From: Pseudoalteromonas ulvae UL12
Lineage (GTDB): Bacteria > Pseudomonadota > Gammaproteobacteria > Enterobacterales > Alteromonadaceae
DNA: 64,000 nucleotides
NCBI RefSeq assembly: GCF_014925405.1
Contig: NZ_AQHJ01000019.1
Location: 74,120 to 138,119 of the forward strand
Direction: 5' to 3'
The translations under genes were made by a program, and so were the position numbers. The notes under the pieces are model-generated. The model ran no database searches, had not been told where the DNA came from, and saw nothing but the letters and a program-made list of their open reading frames with translations. Below, one piece after another: positions 9,341-57,426 of this stretch; positions within the stretch are counted from its first letter, which is position 1; every line of letters begins with the position of its first letter.

Positions 9341-10286
9341 TATCGGCTCCTGCTAGTGCTAATTGCACGCTCATTCCGGGAATGAGTTTAAAAGTGGGTT
9401 TAGATGAAAAGCTAAATTCAGCTCTAAAATAAGCATCGCCTCCCCAGGGTTTCTTTTCTTCTGGTTGTGTCGAAATATCGGTAATGGTCGCGCTGAATTC
9501 TTGTCCTGAGTAAGCATCGAGCTTAAACGACGCGTTTTTGCCTAACGATAATTGATGAAAATCCACCTCGTGGATCCATGCTTCAATATACAACCCAGCT
9601 AACGAAGGAATTTCAGCAATGCTCCAACCGGGTTGAGCCGTCATGCCAACAAAGTTTTTTTCACCATTCCAAGGATGTTTGCCATAAATCAATGGTCCAG
9701 CTTGGGCGGCAGTTAAACTCATTTGCGCTAGCTGTTTTTCGTTTCGGGCTAAATCCGCTGTGGTTTTTTCTATCAGCAGTTGTTGTTTAGCGATATTAAC
9801 CTGACTGGTAATTTTGCTCTCGCGCAATTTTTCTTGCGATTTATTCAGCTCTATTAGCGCTTTTTCTAACTCAAGTTGGTTTTTTTCATAATCGTAAGCA
9901 CTCAAGTTTGCTTTTGGGATCTCGGCATCTATTCGAGCTTTTTCGAGCAATAGCTGATGACGCTTCACCGCAAACTCAGCTTCTAACATCGCTTGCTCTG
10001 CGTTACTTTTCACTCGTTGCAATTCTTCTTGACCAGTAAAGAGTGTGACTTTCGCTTGCTCTATTTGCGAGGCGATACTGCCGCTGTCAAACACCACTAC
10101 CACTTCTCCTTGCTGAGCCACCTCTCCTTCAGGCTTCATCCATTGCACTTCAACTCGCCAACTATCTGTTTTAGGAGCAAAAAACTCTTGATTCTCCCGA
10201 GCTTTAATTTCACCACTGATCAACAAATCAGCAATGGCTACGCTGCTTGTAAGCAAGAGCAAACTGGCCAATATTAGGCTGCGCAT
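9333..10286 (-). CDS. HlyD-type periplasmic adaptor (adaptor 1)
   Basis: A 317-residue adaptor with a cleavable Sec signal (LILASLLLLTSSVAIA) instead of a lipobox. A coiled-coil region (about residues 75-185) is flanked by lipoyl-like beta segments, followed by a barrel segment (NASFKLDAYSGQEFSATITDIS). It overlaps the ATPase gene by 13 bp. Being soluble or inner-membrane associated, it differs from the two lipoprotein adaptors that follow, which suggests a composite periplasmic conduit. Confidence 0.8.
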   Translation of the reverse strand: MRSLILASLLLLTSSVAIADLLISGEIKARENQEFFAPKTDSWRVEVQWMKPEGEVAQQGEVVVVFDSGSIASQIEQAKVTLFTGQEELQRVKSNAEQAMLEAEFAVKRHQLLLEKARIDAEIPKANLSAYDYEKNQLELEKALIELNKSQEKLRESKITSQVNIAKQQLLIEKTTADLARNEKQLAQMSLTAAQAGPLIYGKHPWNGEKNFVGMTAQPGWSIAEIPSLAGLYIEAWIHEVDFHQLSLGKNASFKLDAYSGQEFSATITDISTQPEEKKPWGGDAYFRAEFSFSSKPTFKLIPGMSVQLALAGADNE

Positions 10287-21266: not shown

Positions 21267-21307
21267 GACACAGGCACAGTCCCTTGAAAAAGATTTTCAA
21301 ACGCAAC

Positions 21308-21342
21308 AAAAAAGCACTGACCTTGAGGGTTCAGTGCTTTTT
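21308..21342. terminator. Bidirectional terminator (left repeat copy)
   Basis: AAAAAGCACTGA pairs with TCAGTGCTTTTT around a 10-nt loop, with A and T runs on both sides. It serves cobQ on plus and the peptide genes on minus. The same hairpin is at 22444-22478 in the right copy. Confidence 0.85.
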
Positions 21343-21397
21343 ATTCGCGCTTTGGGATTAACTGCATAGGCAGTCTCCTTATTTATTTCATGATTGT

Positions 21398-21541
21398 TTA
21401 TCGTGTAGCAACTATATAACCACCTGCTATCACAGTTCCTGCGACAACTGCTGAGGCCATACCCGCTGTGGCTAAAAACGCGATGCCTGCCACTGCTAAG
21501 ACTGATGTTGCCATTGATTCAATTATTGATGATGTGTTCAT
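21398..21541 (-). CDS. Small hydrophobic peptide A (47 aa)
   Basis: A 47-residue peptide starting MNTSSIIESMATSV and ending AGGYIVATR. The middle is an uninterrupted Ala/Gly/Val/Ile-rich segment of about 30 residues (VLAVAGIAFLATAGMASAVV and on) with several small-xxx-small patterns. It would span or insert into a membrane. AAGGGA lies about 9 bp before the ATG. It has three paralogues here (B, C, D), with differences concentrated in the N-terminal third, so it is under coding constraint. There is no double-glycine leader and no Cys. Function is unknown: bacteriocin-like, holin-like or small membrane regulator are all possible. Confidence 0.7.
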   Translation of the reverse strand: MNTSSIIESMATSVLAVAGIAFLATAGMASAVVAGTVIAGGYIVATR

Positions 21542-21575
21542 TGTACGTTTCCCTTTAAATGTTGAATTAAGTAAA

Positions 21576-21719
21576 TTAACGAGTTGCTAAGATATAACCG
21601 CCAGCTAATACAGTACCTGTCACCACTGCTGAAGCCATACCCGCTGTGGCTAAAAATGCGATACCTGCCACTGCTAATACTGATGTCATTGTAAATTCGA
21701 TGATGTTTGAAGAAGTCAT
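21576..21719 (-). CDS. Small hydrophobic peptide B (47 aa)
   Basis: A 47-residue peptide starting MTSSNIIEFTMTSV and ending AGGYILATR, sharing the VLAVAGIAFLATAGMASAVV core with peptide A. AGGT lies about 8 bp before the ATG. It is upstream of A in the same transcript direction, with 34 bp between B's stop and A's start, so A and B form a two-peptide pair. Only one residue differs from its copy D (Val/Ile at position 17), a stronger conservation than between A and C. Confidence 0.7.
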   Translation of the reverse strand: MTSSNIIEFTMTSVLAVAGIAFLATAGMASAVVTGTVLAGGYILATR

Positions 21720-21810
21720 AATAATTACCTACTAAGTTTTGAATTAAGTGGCTGTTTGCCGTGTCGTTGAGGTAATAGTAGGCAAGATCCTGCGCTCTGT
21801 TTGCGACTAT

Positions 21811-21840
21811 GTGATGAGTGGTGAAGTAAGGTGATAAAGG
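21811..21840 (-). promoter_or_regulatory. 10-bp phased direct repeats upstream of peptides B-A
   Basis: Read on plus, GTGATGAGTG, GTGAAGTAAG and GTGATAAAGG are three consecutive decamers, so CAC recurs every 10 bp on the coding strand. They end 30 bp upstream of a TACTAT that may be the -10 (21775-21780), with no good -35. This layout suits an activator binding one face of the DNA. The array is duplicated at 22947-22986. Confidence 0.5.
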
Positions 21841-21919
21841 GTCAATTCAAGGTATAAACTTAACGCTAGAAAGTGAGTGAATTAGTACTGGCATTGCAAA
21901 GAGCTTGGATCAAACCCAT

Positions 21920-22369
21920 TTAACTCTGTTCAACAAAGGCCTTGATATCTTGCAAGTCTTTTTCGATCAGTTTGAGCATTGATTTTTTGATAAAAAAGCC
22001 CATGATGGCGGTCATGCACTTCATAACCATCCCATCTGCACTTCCCTGGAAAGACATGGTGAGTTGAGTGTTTCCTGCCACTTCATCGAGTGAAATTCGA
22101 GTGGTGTAGATTGCCCCACAGTTTTCTGCGCGAGTACAATAATATTCTTGCTCTTTGGCTTGGGTGATCCACATTGTTTCGGTGGATTCTTTACCAAATA
22201 CTTGACGTGTCTCCGCCCATTTTAAACCAATTAATCCCTCTGCCGGCTGATGAATTACATTCAAGTCAAGGATACCGTCAATCATCGTTTGCCATTGCGA
22301 AATATCCGTTATTGCAGCCCAGACATCAGCTCTTGGGCTGTTAATTTCTATTGATGAGACGATATTCAT
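21920..22369 (-). CDS. SRPBCC (START-like) family protein
   Basis: 149 residues of the polyketide-cyclase/START-like fold: N-terminal strand IVSSIEINSPRADVWAAITDISQW, typical of the family, then GLIGLKWAETRQVFGKE, TTRISLDEV and a long C-terminal amphipathic helix. Such proteins have a cavity for hydrophobic ligands. It lies between the two peptide repeats in the same orientation. Whether it protects against, modifies or merely neighbours the peptides is not known. Confidence 0.8.
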   Translation of the reverse strand: MNIVSSIEINSPRADVWAAITDISQWQTMIDGILDLNVIHQPAEGLIGLKWAETRQVFGKESTETMWITQAKEQEYYCTRAENCGAIYTTRISLDEVAGNTQLTMSFQGSADGMVMKCMTAIMGFFIKKSMLKLIEKDLQDIKAFVEQS

Positions 22370-22443
22370 ACTTAATTTCCATTATTTATAAGACAGTTAG
22401 ATTTTATTTACTAAGAGCATAGTCAATAAATACTGATAATCAC

Positions 22444-22478
22444 AAAAAAGCACTGACCTTGAGGGTTCAGTGCTTTTT
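22444..22478. terminator. Terminator hairpin (right repeat copy)
   Basis: Same stem as at 21308-21342 (AAAAAGCACTGA / TCAGTGCTTTTT). It ends the D-C transcript on minus and insulates the SRPBCC gene from it. Confidence 0.85.
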
Positions 22479-22533
22479 ATTCGCGCTTTGGGATTAACTG
22501 CATAGGCAGCCTCCTTATTTATTTCATGATTGT

Positions 22534-22677
22534 TTATCGTGTAGCGACTATATAACCACCTGCTATTACTGTTCCTGCGACAACTGCTGAGGCCATACCC
22601 GCTGTAGCTAAGAATACGATGCCTGCCACTGCGACGACTGATGTTGTTATTGATTCGACCATTGATGATGTGTTCAT
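22534..22677 (-). CDS. Small hydrophobic peptide C (47 aa)
   Basis: Paralogue of peptide A: starts MNTSSMVESITTSV and ends AGGYIVATR. It differs from A at about six positions, all conservative and mostly in the N-terminal half. The hydrophobic core FLATAGMASAVVAGTVIAGG is identical. Same ribosome-binding context and 34-bp spacing from its partner D. Confidence 0.7.
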   Translation of the reverse strand: MNTSSMVESITTSVVAVAGIVFLATAGMASAVVAGTVIAGGYIVATR

Positions 22678-22711
22678 TGTACGTTTCCCTTAAAATGTTG
22701 AGTTAAGTAAA

Positions 22712-22855
22712 TTAACGAGTTGCTAAGATATAACCGCCAGCTAATACAGTACCGGTTACCACTGCTGAAGCCATACCTGCTGTGGCTAAAAATGCGATAC
22801 CTGCGATTGCTAATACTGATGTCATTGTAAATTCGATGATGTTTGAAGAAGTCAT
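22712..22855 (-). CDS. Small hydrophobic peptide D (47 aa)
   Basis: Paralogue of peptide B with one amino-acid change (Ile for Val at position 17) although the DNA differs at several synonymous sites, for example GTAACC versus GTGACA in its second half. This pattern supports translation and purifying selection. First gene of the D-C pair. Confidence 0.7.
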   Translation of the reverse strand: MTSSNIIEFTMTSVLAIAGIAFLATAGMASAVVTGTVLAGGYILATR

Positions 22856-22946
22856 AATAATTACCTACTAAGTTTTGAATTAAGTGGCTGTTTGCCGTGT
22901 CGTTGAGGTAATAGTAGGTAAGATTCTGCACCCTGTTTGCGACTAT

Positions 22947-22986
22947 GTGATGAGTGGTGAAGTAAGGTGATAAAGGGTGAAATCAG
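22947..22986 (-). promoter_or_regulatory. 10-bp phased direct repeats upstream of peptides D-C
   Basis: Four consecutive decamers start with GTGA on plus: GTGATGAGTG, GTGAAGTAAG, GTGATAAAGG and GTGAAATCAG. The fourth extends past the repeat boundary, and the left copy has GTCA at this position. Likely the operator of the second peptide pair. Confidence 0.5.
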
Positions 22987-23129
22987 CGGATAAAAAATCA
23001 ACGAACATTAATTCAGATCACATAAGGCTGAAATGACCCTGAAAAAGCCCTATAGATTGCTGTTTGTCTCTTTAATTGCTGCTATAATAAGCAGCTGTAA
23101 ACTCTTCATTTTTACTCATTGATAATACA

Positions 23130-56661: not shown

Positions 56662-57426
56662 ATGAAAAAATTCAGTGTAGTAATAGCCGAACCCTCAGAG
56701 TCTATTCGTCGGCAATTGCAAGAATTACTCAAGTCACATCCTCGTTTTGAAGCGCTAACCCTTGCTTTTGATCTTCAAGAGGCCAAAGACATTTGTGATT
56801 CAATGCAGGCTGACGTGCTTTTTATCAGTAAAAACATGCTACAACAATCAACACTAGCCAATACTCAGGCTAATTTGCCCTTTCATACTTTGACTGTGTG
56901 TATGTCAGATTCTATTGATTATGCAGCACAAGCATTTGAGCATGATGCGATTGACTATTTGGTTCACCCGATAAGCCCTGAGCGCTTTAATAAATGTATT
57001 TCAAAGTTATCCGCAAGACTTGGTACGTTTAACTTGGAACCCTTACAACAAATGCAAGGCTTGATTAAAACGATGCAATTTGCTACTCAAGCAAAAAAAG
57101 TTGATCCTTTGATTATTAAAGAATCTGGCCGGATTCGAATTGTCGAACATGACAGCATTATGTGGGTAGGCGGTGCGGGTAACTACGTAGAGTTGCACCT
57201 TATCGATGAAGACCGACCCATTCTCTATCGCGAAACACTGACAGAAATGGCTAACAAACTAGCCGACTTTGGTTTTGTTCGAATCCATCGTTCAATCATC
57301 GTTAAAAAGCACTTCATTAGTGAGTTAAAGCCGACAGAAAATGGGGATTATCTCGTCACACTTAAGAATGGTACACCGTTAAACTTTTCAAGACGTTACA
57401 AACAAACAATGTCTGAAATATTTTGA
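56662..57426 (+). CDS. LytTR-type regulator with degenerate receiver domain
   Basis: 254 residues. The N-terminal 120 residues follow the receiver layout (FSVVIAEPSESIRRQLQELL, ADVLFISKNM, TVCMSDSIDYAAQAFEHDAIDYLVHPISPERF). The acidic pair is replaced (AEPSE), the phosphoacceptor Asp position reads Ser (FISKN) and the Lys before Pro is His (VHPIS). The C-terminal LytTR DNA-binding domain (about 148-254) has the family features GRIRIVEHDSIMWVGGAGNYVELH and FVRIHRSIIVKKHFI. It likely works without phosphorylation. Its target may be the divergent receptor gene. Confidence 0.85.
   Translation: MKKFSVVIAEPSESIRRQLQELLKSHPRFEALTLAFDLQEAKDICDSMQADVLFISKNMLQQSTLANTQANLPFHTLTVCMSDSIDYAAQAFEHDAIDYLVHPISPERFNKCISKLSARLGTFNLEPLQQMQGLIKTMQFATQAKKVDPLIIKESGRIRIVEHDSIMWVGGAGNYVELHLIDEDRPILYRETLTEMANKLADFGFVRIHRSIIVKKHFISELKPTENGDYLVTLKNGTPLNFSRRYKQTMSEIF

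Follow-up and report, generated by a model that had tools for sequence, protein, structure and literature searches.

The window analysed here, a stretch of 64,000 nucleotides from Pseudoalteromonas ulvae UL12 (contig NZ_AQHJ01000019.1, positions 74,120 to 138,119 of the forward strand), contains a duplicated cassette of small genes. The two copies formed direct repeats (21306-21842 and 22442-22978), which aligned without gaps over 537 bases at 95.2% identity; identity in their 100-base flanks was 27% and 29%, which is chance level. On the minus strand of each repeat, two 47-codon genes lay between a promoter region and a terminator-like hairpin, and a gene for an SRPBCC-type protein separated the repeats (Table 1). 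The ungapped repeats, the paired peptides (B-A and D-C) and the dedicated terminators had been described in a first-pass annotation made from the sequence alone, and all three descriptions held, the terminators being likely intrinsic ones. We suggest, tentatively and as part of the overall explanation weighed below, that either repeat is transcribed as a unit of its own and belongs to a multicopy regulon of small proteins.

From the -10 element to the start codon, none of the 61 bases differed between the two window copies. The terminator hairpins had folding energies of -28.7 and -19.8. They were absent from the consensus terminator scan because their loop is about 10 bases long and the loop limit of the scan was 8. 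Even with 3 mismatches allowed, the hairpin had no further occurrence in the genome, and a scattered repetitive extragenic palindromic (REP) element was rejected as its identity since it was present at the two cassettes only. A leader hairpin that would sequester the ribosome-binding site (TTACCTACT/AGTAGGTAA) was also set aside, because its 5′ half shares bases with the -10 element and precedes the probable start of the transcript; by eye, the other cassettes lacked it.

Table 1. Features of the duplicated cassette and the intervening gene (window coordinates).
Feature	Position	Strand	Evidence
Peptide A, 47 amino acids (aa)	21398-21541	-	Open reading frame (ORF); 6 residues differ from C
Peptide B, 47 aa	21576-21719	-	ORF; 1 residue differs from D
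Peptide C, 47 aa	22534-22677	-	ORF; family matches; dN/dS
Peptide D, 47 aa	22712-22855	-	ORF; family matches; dN/dS; AlphaFold2 single helix
Operator/promoter 2, 10/20-bp phased direct repeats (ACC..ATCAC units)	22906..22997	-	Alignment of 32 promoters; autocorrelation; model match 60.8 bits (by construction)
-10 element TACTAT of operator/promoter 2	22911-22916	-	
Operator/promoter 1, architecture as in promoter 2	21770..21861	-	Alignment of 32 promoters; model match 60.9 bits (by construction)
Likely intrinsic terminator, cassette B-A	21309-21342	-	Hairpin and T run
Likely intrinsic terminator, cassette D-C	22445-22478	-	Hairpin and T run
SRPBCC-type protein, 149 aa, passenger, outside the conserved unit	21920..22369	-	Pfam PF10604; distribution

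The peptide family

The peptide genes look real, because synonymous changes prevail between copies and relatives were found in 9 of 108 Pseudoalteromonas genomes with a profile built from 14 peptides. Sequence comparison also shows them to be under purifying selection. B and D differed at one residue and 5 DNA sites, A and C at 6 residues and 14 DNA sites, and the ratios of nonsynonymous to synonymous change (dN/dS), resting on few changes, were 0.15 and 0.31. Between the window copies and those of the carrier G128 they were 0.14-0.21, and a second pair in the UL12 genome (contig C27) showed 14 synonymous and no nonsynonymous changes. All these ratios come from small counts, without a significance test per pair, and the pairs agreed with one another. 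The suspicion that selection acts on the protein was thus supported.

The nine genomes with relatives, here called carriers, had 3-11 intact copies each. In the loci examined, 56 intact genes were counted: 11 in G087, 9 in G016, 7 each in UL12 (G000) and G002, 5 each in G003, G128 and G017, 4 in G034 and 3 in G102. Synteny and sequence led us to take G128 as P. tunicata. In G003, G034 and G102, several cassettes lay no more than about 400 bases from the start of a contig, which probably makes the copy counts of draft genomes underestimates. Cassettes held either a pair or one peptide. The UL12 genome had three further cassettes on another contig, all single-peptide, and several carriers had cassettes of this kind; pairing is therefore not obligatory for these peptides.

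The search for homologues that the first-pass annotation had proposed gave no relatives beyond the genus: of 394 genomes sampled from the order, the other 393 gave no match to a broader profile (E<=0.001). Plasmids and phages gave no match with one peptide searched in each. A large protein database returned 93 homologues, of which the named ones were hypothetical proteins and the organisms named were Pseudoalteromonas. Neither Pfam and NCBIfam (25 members each) nor PADLOC and PHROGs (6 peptides each) had a family matching above cut-off, and the weak matches far below it were chance-like (e.g. MscSThanab, E 0.006; DUF2177, E 0.007). A fold search of the predicted helix against the PDB found no match, and the profile had a single chance-level match among PDB sequences (E 0.11). 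We found no description of the peptide family or the operator in the open-access literature searched, in agreement with the earlier statement that no such system was known. A P. tunicata biofilm proteomics study (PMC12153261) names hypothetical proteins by accession or in general terms.

Six positions (M1, L23, G27, M28, A31 and G35) were invariant in 25 aligned members. Peptide properties were counted in 55 of the 56 intact peptides, one 67-aa reading being dropped. The motif GMxxAxxxG was present in all 55, partly by construction, as the same profile had found them. Net charge ranged from -1 to +1 (zero in 49 peptides) and the grand average of hydropathy (GRAVY) from 0.95 to 1.58, and neither Cys nor Trp occurred in any peptide. 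These data support the membrane-type sequence, the lack of Cys and the small-xxx-small spacing noted earlier for the window peptides. Every peptide had an acidic residue within the first 14 positions and a basic residue within the last 8, and two had a basic residue within the first 14. The positive-inside rule for membrane topology accordingly predicts an N-end outside and a C-end inside. Behind the operator, genes of 44-52 aa came singly or in twos, as a rule followed by a terminator-like hairpin. In the window peptides the hydrophobic core began at about residue 13 and no GG or GA preceded residue 40, so for these the absence of a classical leader was confirmed.

AlphaFold2 modelled peptide D as one helix (residues 3-46), with a predicted local distance difference test score (pLDDT) of 92 for the best of five models (range 72-92) and a predicted template-modelling score of 0.48. 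We infer that the peptides insert into the membrane and oligomerise there. By analogy they may resemble the Pf3-type leaderless peptides that are inserted N-out by YidC, which, as far as these are described, have an acidic N-end, a basic C-end and one hydrophobic helix. No sequence relationship to Pf3-type peptides was found, and there was no phage match.

Operator and candidate regulator

The shared upstream region, noted in the first reading of the repeats, proved to be the key part; its operator was common to most cassettes. We aligned the promoters of 32 of the 44 cassettes over 92 columns. Left out were four cassettes without operator (L023, L027, L059, L061), two with too short an upstream sequence (the second of L025, and L065), one truncated (L062), two very distant (L075, L076), one decayed (the first of L055), one with an insertion between operator and gene (the third of L057) and one weak (L028). 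The aligned operators consisted of ATCAC/ACC units spaced 20 bases apart, followed by a CTATTATT-like -10 element. Autocorrelation, computed over the first 56 columns, was 0.21 at lag 20, 0.13 at lag 10 and 0.08 at lag 30, and at most 0.025 at every other lag from 5 to 30. The four cassettes without operator formed a single-peptide subfamily (MNTSNAFDLLFT...) that retains the peptide. In the third katG-site cassette of G087 (L057, about 9343-9548), about 160 extra bases separated the operator from the first peptide gene as compared with its sisters.

At E<=0.01, a model of the operator built from sequence only gave 73 sites across the 9 carriers, of which 36 lay outside cassettes. The other 37 were counted as cassettes, including two (G016 C163 and G102 C67) that reach the contig end before a peptide. 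In 30 of the 99 peptide-free genomes the model found 6 sites (best E 0.0029), of which two (L319, L320) were examined. In both scans the best 150 or so first-look candidates per genome were scored. Among the 30 non-cassette sites examined, nine preceded DUF3718 genes, four a 58-aa peptide, two a 63-aa peptide, five ABC (ATP-binding cassette) genes, two were pspA-linked and eight preceded assorted genes. The DUF3718 assignment was supported by Pfam in G000, G003, G017, both cases of G002 and one of G087, and was otherwise made by eye. The 58-aa and 63-aa peptides represent two more families of small membrane peptides, and the 58-aa peptide had a GAGMxSAVVIG-like core, as in the cassette family. 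The operator-bearing ABC ATPase gene occurred in 5 carriers, followed by an ABC-2 permease in both loci traced further; in G128 the operon continues into what we take to be a peptidase-like part with the motif HEVAH. At the two pspA-linked sites, both weak, the operator preceded a 38-aa hydrophobic ORF upstream of pspA; the pspA of G000 scored above the NCBIfam cut-off. Operator-bearing DUF3718 genes were duplicated in tandem in G087 (L122, 5122-6191; 497 bases, 91%), and a similar pair was present in G002.

Beside the DUF3718 pairs of G087 and G002 lay a convergent pair of genes for a histidine kinase and an OmpR-family regulator. Relatives of the kinase at 52% identity or more were found in 8 of the 9 carriers, and the other 99 genomes gave 4 matches at E<=1e-60, with 31-33% identity. 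A search of genome contigs with the kinase alignment had at least one carrier, strain P1-9 (G102), among the matches listed and was not used to judge distribution. The regulator, with a receiver and a Trans_reg_C domain, adjoined the kinase in all 8 loci examined and was 81-97% identical in the 7 aligned. The kinase had no recognised sensor domain in Pfam. As in the OmpR/PhoB-family regulons (ArcA, OmpR, PhoB), the operator is a helical-phase direct repeat by the promoter and a regulator of that family co-occurs with it. The match between operator type and regulator family, together with the co-occurrence, points to this two-component system as the regulator. The sites of ArcA, a member of the OmpR family, are multiple direct repeats one helical turn apart, 11 bp from centre to centre (PMC3798270). 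The cassette operator differs from these in its 10- and 20-bp spacing, and from the ArcA, OmpR and PhoB regulons in its targets, which are a new peptide family and DUF3718.

A LytTR-type regulator was considered because of the 20-bp spacing and is less favoured; the extra 10-bp phase speaks for the OmpR type. One LytTR-domain gene lies in the window (57130-57420; G000:C18:131249-131539), and no link between it and the cassettes was seen. A BaeSR-like pair beside one operator of G128 was rejected as the common regulator because few matches reached E<=1e-60: the regulator was matched in 5 of 14 other genomes searched, at 47-54% identity. In the UL12 genome (L212, 2166-6516, contig C29), the candidate regulator gene and the 3′ part of the kinase were repeated in tandem to three copies that matched at 100% over 1031-1548 bases, either a recent amplification or an assembly artefact.

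Proposed envelope response and its alternatives

The explanation we prefer, at a probability of about 0.46, is that a dedicated two-component system switches on multicopy single-helix inner-membrane peptides within an envelope response. The envelope is suggested as the site of the response by the operator targets, namely DUF3718 proteins with a signal-like N-end, the ABC-2 operon and the pspA-linked peptide. We infer both the binding of the regulator to the operator and the activity of the peptides. The kinase would sense envelope disturbance, and the phosphorylated regulator is predicted to bind the operator as tandem dimers and to turn the cassettes on together. The peptides would then enter the inner membrane as single long helices, with the acidic end out and the basic end in, and the invariant G-x3-A-x3-G face may pack them into oligomers that alter membrane permeability or stiffness. 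The co-induced ABC-2 system and the pspA-linked protein could handle the consequences, and multiple copies could provide dosage. Recombination between copies may let passengers such as the SRPBCC gene enter and leave. Psp and Lia are envelope- or peptide-stress regulons with PspA and ABC exporters, and the operator on a pspA-linked small membrane protein and on an ABC-2 operon is reminiscent of them, the pspA link being weak; the regulator is another one, however, and the dominant targets here are multicopy peptides.

Several findings weigh against this explanation. The pLDDT of the five models of peptide D is widely spread, and a single helix is easily predicted for any short hydrophobic peptide. 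Four cassettes have no operator, though their peptides are members of the family. Of the 30 non-cassette sites, 19 showed the periodicity, with z values against mononucleotide shuffles of 10.2 at lag 20 and 5.3 at lag 10, but these sites had been found by a model already containing it. Taken individually, the pspA-linked and ABC operators are weak, with E between 2e-5 and 5e-3 per genome, and close relatives account for four of the five ABC sites. The kinase was not found in the carrier G003, an assembly of 460 contigs. Since the 9 carriers probably represent few related clades, its co-occurrence with the peptides may partly reflect shared descent. None of the operator matches beside the kinase/regulator pair was convincing in G000, G128, G017 and G034 (best E 0.19), and those in G016 were weak. 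Operator proximity alone proves little, as the BaeSR-like pair of G128 was not kept in other carriers. Carriers also had more LytTR genes (7-12, versus 2-7 in 10 non-carriers), and such genes were present in all 19 genomes tested.

The preferred explanation has a bolder form, in which the sensor-regulator pair fires as many as eleven peptides, neutral in charge and packing by their helices, along with an ABC-2/peptidase-like transporter, directed at the cell's own membrane or that of a rival. This would be an undescribed kind of Gram-negative peptide system, whose cassettes double as recombination points for passenger swapping. We regard this form as doubtful.

It is unlikely that the peptides are bacteriocin-like and exported, or self-acting pore formers, without a leader in P. 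ulvae and perhaps with a double-glycine-like leader elsewhere, for which the ABC-2 operon would provide export or immunity. In the manner of the leaderless two- and multi-peptide bacteriocins (enterocin DD14/L50, aureocin A70), the window peptides are leaderless and their paralogues adjacent, and a size of 30-50 aa is common to both groups. The tandem paralogues, the hydrophobic helix and the operator-bearing ABC genes, including the permease in two carriers and the peptidase-like part in G128, suit this explanation. So does the position of glycine in the 13 peptides of G003, G034 and G017, in which residues 16-17, after an acidic-Leu stretch, were GG in 7 and GA in 3. The GG subfamily was found at loci L064, L066, L068, L069, L071, L073 and L074, and three other peptides had GA. 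Double-glycine-leader peptides, among them the two-peptide class IIb bacteriocins, have an N-terminal leader with GG, GA or GS at its end. We take the position found here to resemble the end of such a leader; it could be a processing site, which would also count against peptides that stay in the membrane. In the other six carriers, UL12 with the window peptides among them, none of 42 peptides had GG or GA there, and none of the NCBIfam matches of 25 members was a leader model. Leaderless bacteriocins have clustered transport and immunity genes, whereas no constant export or immunity genes were met at the cassettes, whose neighbours varied from site to site (19 loci listed); the ABC operon has the operator in common with them, not the locus. 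Nor did dN/dS give any sign of diversifying selection. The bacteriocins are cationic and less hydrophobic, with net charges of +2 to +7 and GRAVY values of -0.14 to 0.71 among the table rows considered from one review (PMC6131525), as against the neutral, scattered and more hydrophobic peptides of the cassettes. An exported bacteriocin is less likely given these charges and hydropathies and the lack of constant neighbours, and is kept alive by the GG/GA site in three carriers. The bacteriocin suggestion of the first-pass annotation thus lost ground on charge and neighbours and kept some on the putative processing site.

Type I toxin-antitoxin-like loci, with hydrophobic toxins repressed by antisense RNA as in Ldr/Rdl of Escherichia coli, are a less probable explanation again. 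The peptides are hydrophobic, shorter than 60 aa and predicted to form one helix, as type I membrane toxins (TisB, Ldr, Hok, Ibs) do, and they are encoded in multicopy direct repeats of about 0.5 kb; Ldr, too, is multicopy in direct repeats of about 0.5 kb. No sequence relationship to TisB, Ldr, Hok or Ibs was found, and a common direct-repeat operator at most copies sets the cassettes apart from these toxins. No promoter-like site was found on the opposite strand of the window cassettes, in a scan that also misses the cassettes' own promoters; the one opposite-strand site detected lay inside the SRPBCC gene. Rfam had no family in the window at the gathering cut-off, and little sequence separates the -10 element from the start codon, some 45-95 bases as a very rough estimate by eye. 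Fst/Ldr toxins have a PxxxGC motif (PMC8309996), and this motif is ruled out by the absence of Cys from all 55 peptides. We consider a toxin-antitoxin system less likely in view of the missing antisense promoter, albeit in an insensitive scan, and of the missing motif.

Passenger genes and possible recombination between cassettes

The protein encoded between the repeats matched Polyketide_cyc2 (E 2.9e-7, meeting the Pfam cut-off) and had been proposed as an immunity or lipid-binding partner of the peptides. We rejected this role on the distribution of the gene. Homologues at E<=1e-15 were found in 12 of the 108 genomes, and 8 of the 11 besides UL12 had no peptides. Conversely, 5 of the 9 carriers (G128, G102, G003, G034, G017) had no homologue at this threshold, and in G002, G087 and G016 it was located away from every cassette found. 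At the same chromosomal site, G128 had two cassettes around another gene (L054, 6047-7039). With relatives elsewhere and other genes between the repeats of other species, the SRPBCC gene is best regarded as a passenger.

Other sites varied in a similar way. At a BCCT site, G002 and G102 had one cassette and no BCCT-like gene, and G016 and G087 had two cassettes around a BCCT-like gene; at a katG-like site, two or three cassettes surrounded differing genes (gene names at both sites were assigned by eye). At a cobQ-like site, the copies were 94-95% identical within species and 83-84% between species, with full tree support, so they either arose by separate duplications or have been homogenised by gene conversion. 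In the BCCT-site tree the two G087 copies grouped together (97.5%) and the two G016 copies did not, and the katG-site tree was unresolved. Taken together, the three trees show concerted evolution at one site and partly at another. Cassettes also flanked a gene pair that is presumably LodA/LodB-like (L021, 6369-10607; L055, 7099-11236), those of G128 being decayed. An ORF between two cassettes of G017 (L071, 7819-8265) and ORFs adjoining a cassette of G034 (L068, 7766-8934) were typed by motif, as presumably REP-associated transposase-like and IS3-like, respectively.

The cassettes might on these grounds be mainly recombination or mobility units with incidental peptides. The exchange of passengers at single sites, the within-species likeness at the cobQ-like site and the transposase-like ORFs would fit, but we give this very little weight. 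The conserved parts are the peptide genes and the operator, the repeats of the window are bounded by operator and terminator, and the BCCT-site and katG-site trees do not repeat the cobQ-like pattern in full. Plasmids and phages gave no match for the one peptide searched in each, integrases and common ends not having been searched systematically. Least probable of all are secreted or membrane signalling peptides of the quorum type, sensed by the same two-component system, for which the co-occurrence of peptides and kinase speaks, and against which stand up to 11 paralogues per genome and an extreme hydrophobicity, both of which sit badly with a diffusible signal, and a kinase without a Pfam-recognised sensor domain.

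Systems in which a two-component regulator controls small membrane proteins in response to stress are of a known kind. The peptide family, and the multicopy cassette architecture with its passengers, appear to be new. With a new small-membrane-protein family, an operator of sharp definition and a named candidate for the regulator pair, an envelope regulon of marine bacteria becomes testable. The cassettes also provide an example of multicopy small-protein units with changing passenger genes between them.

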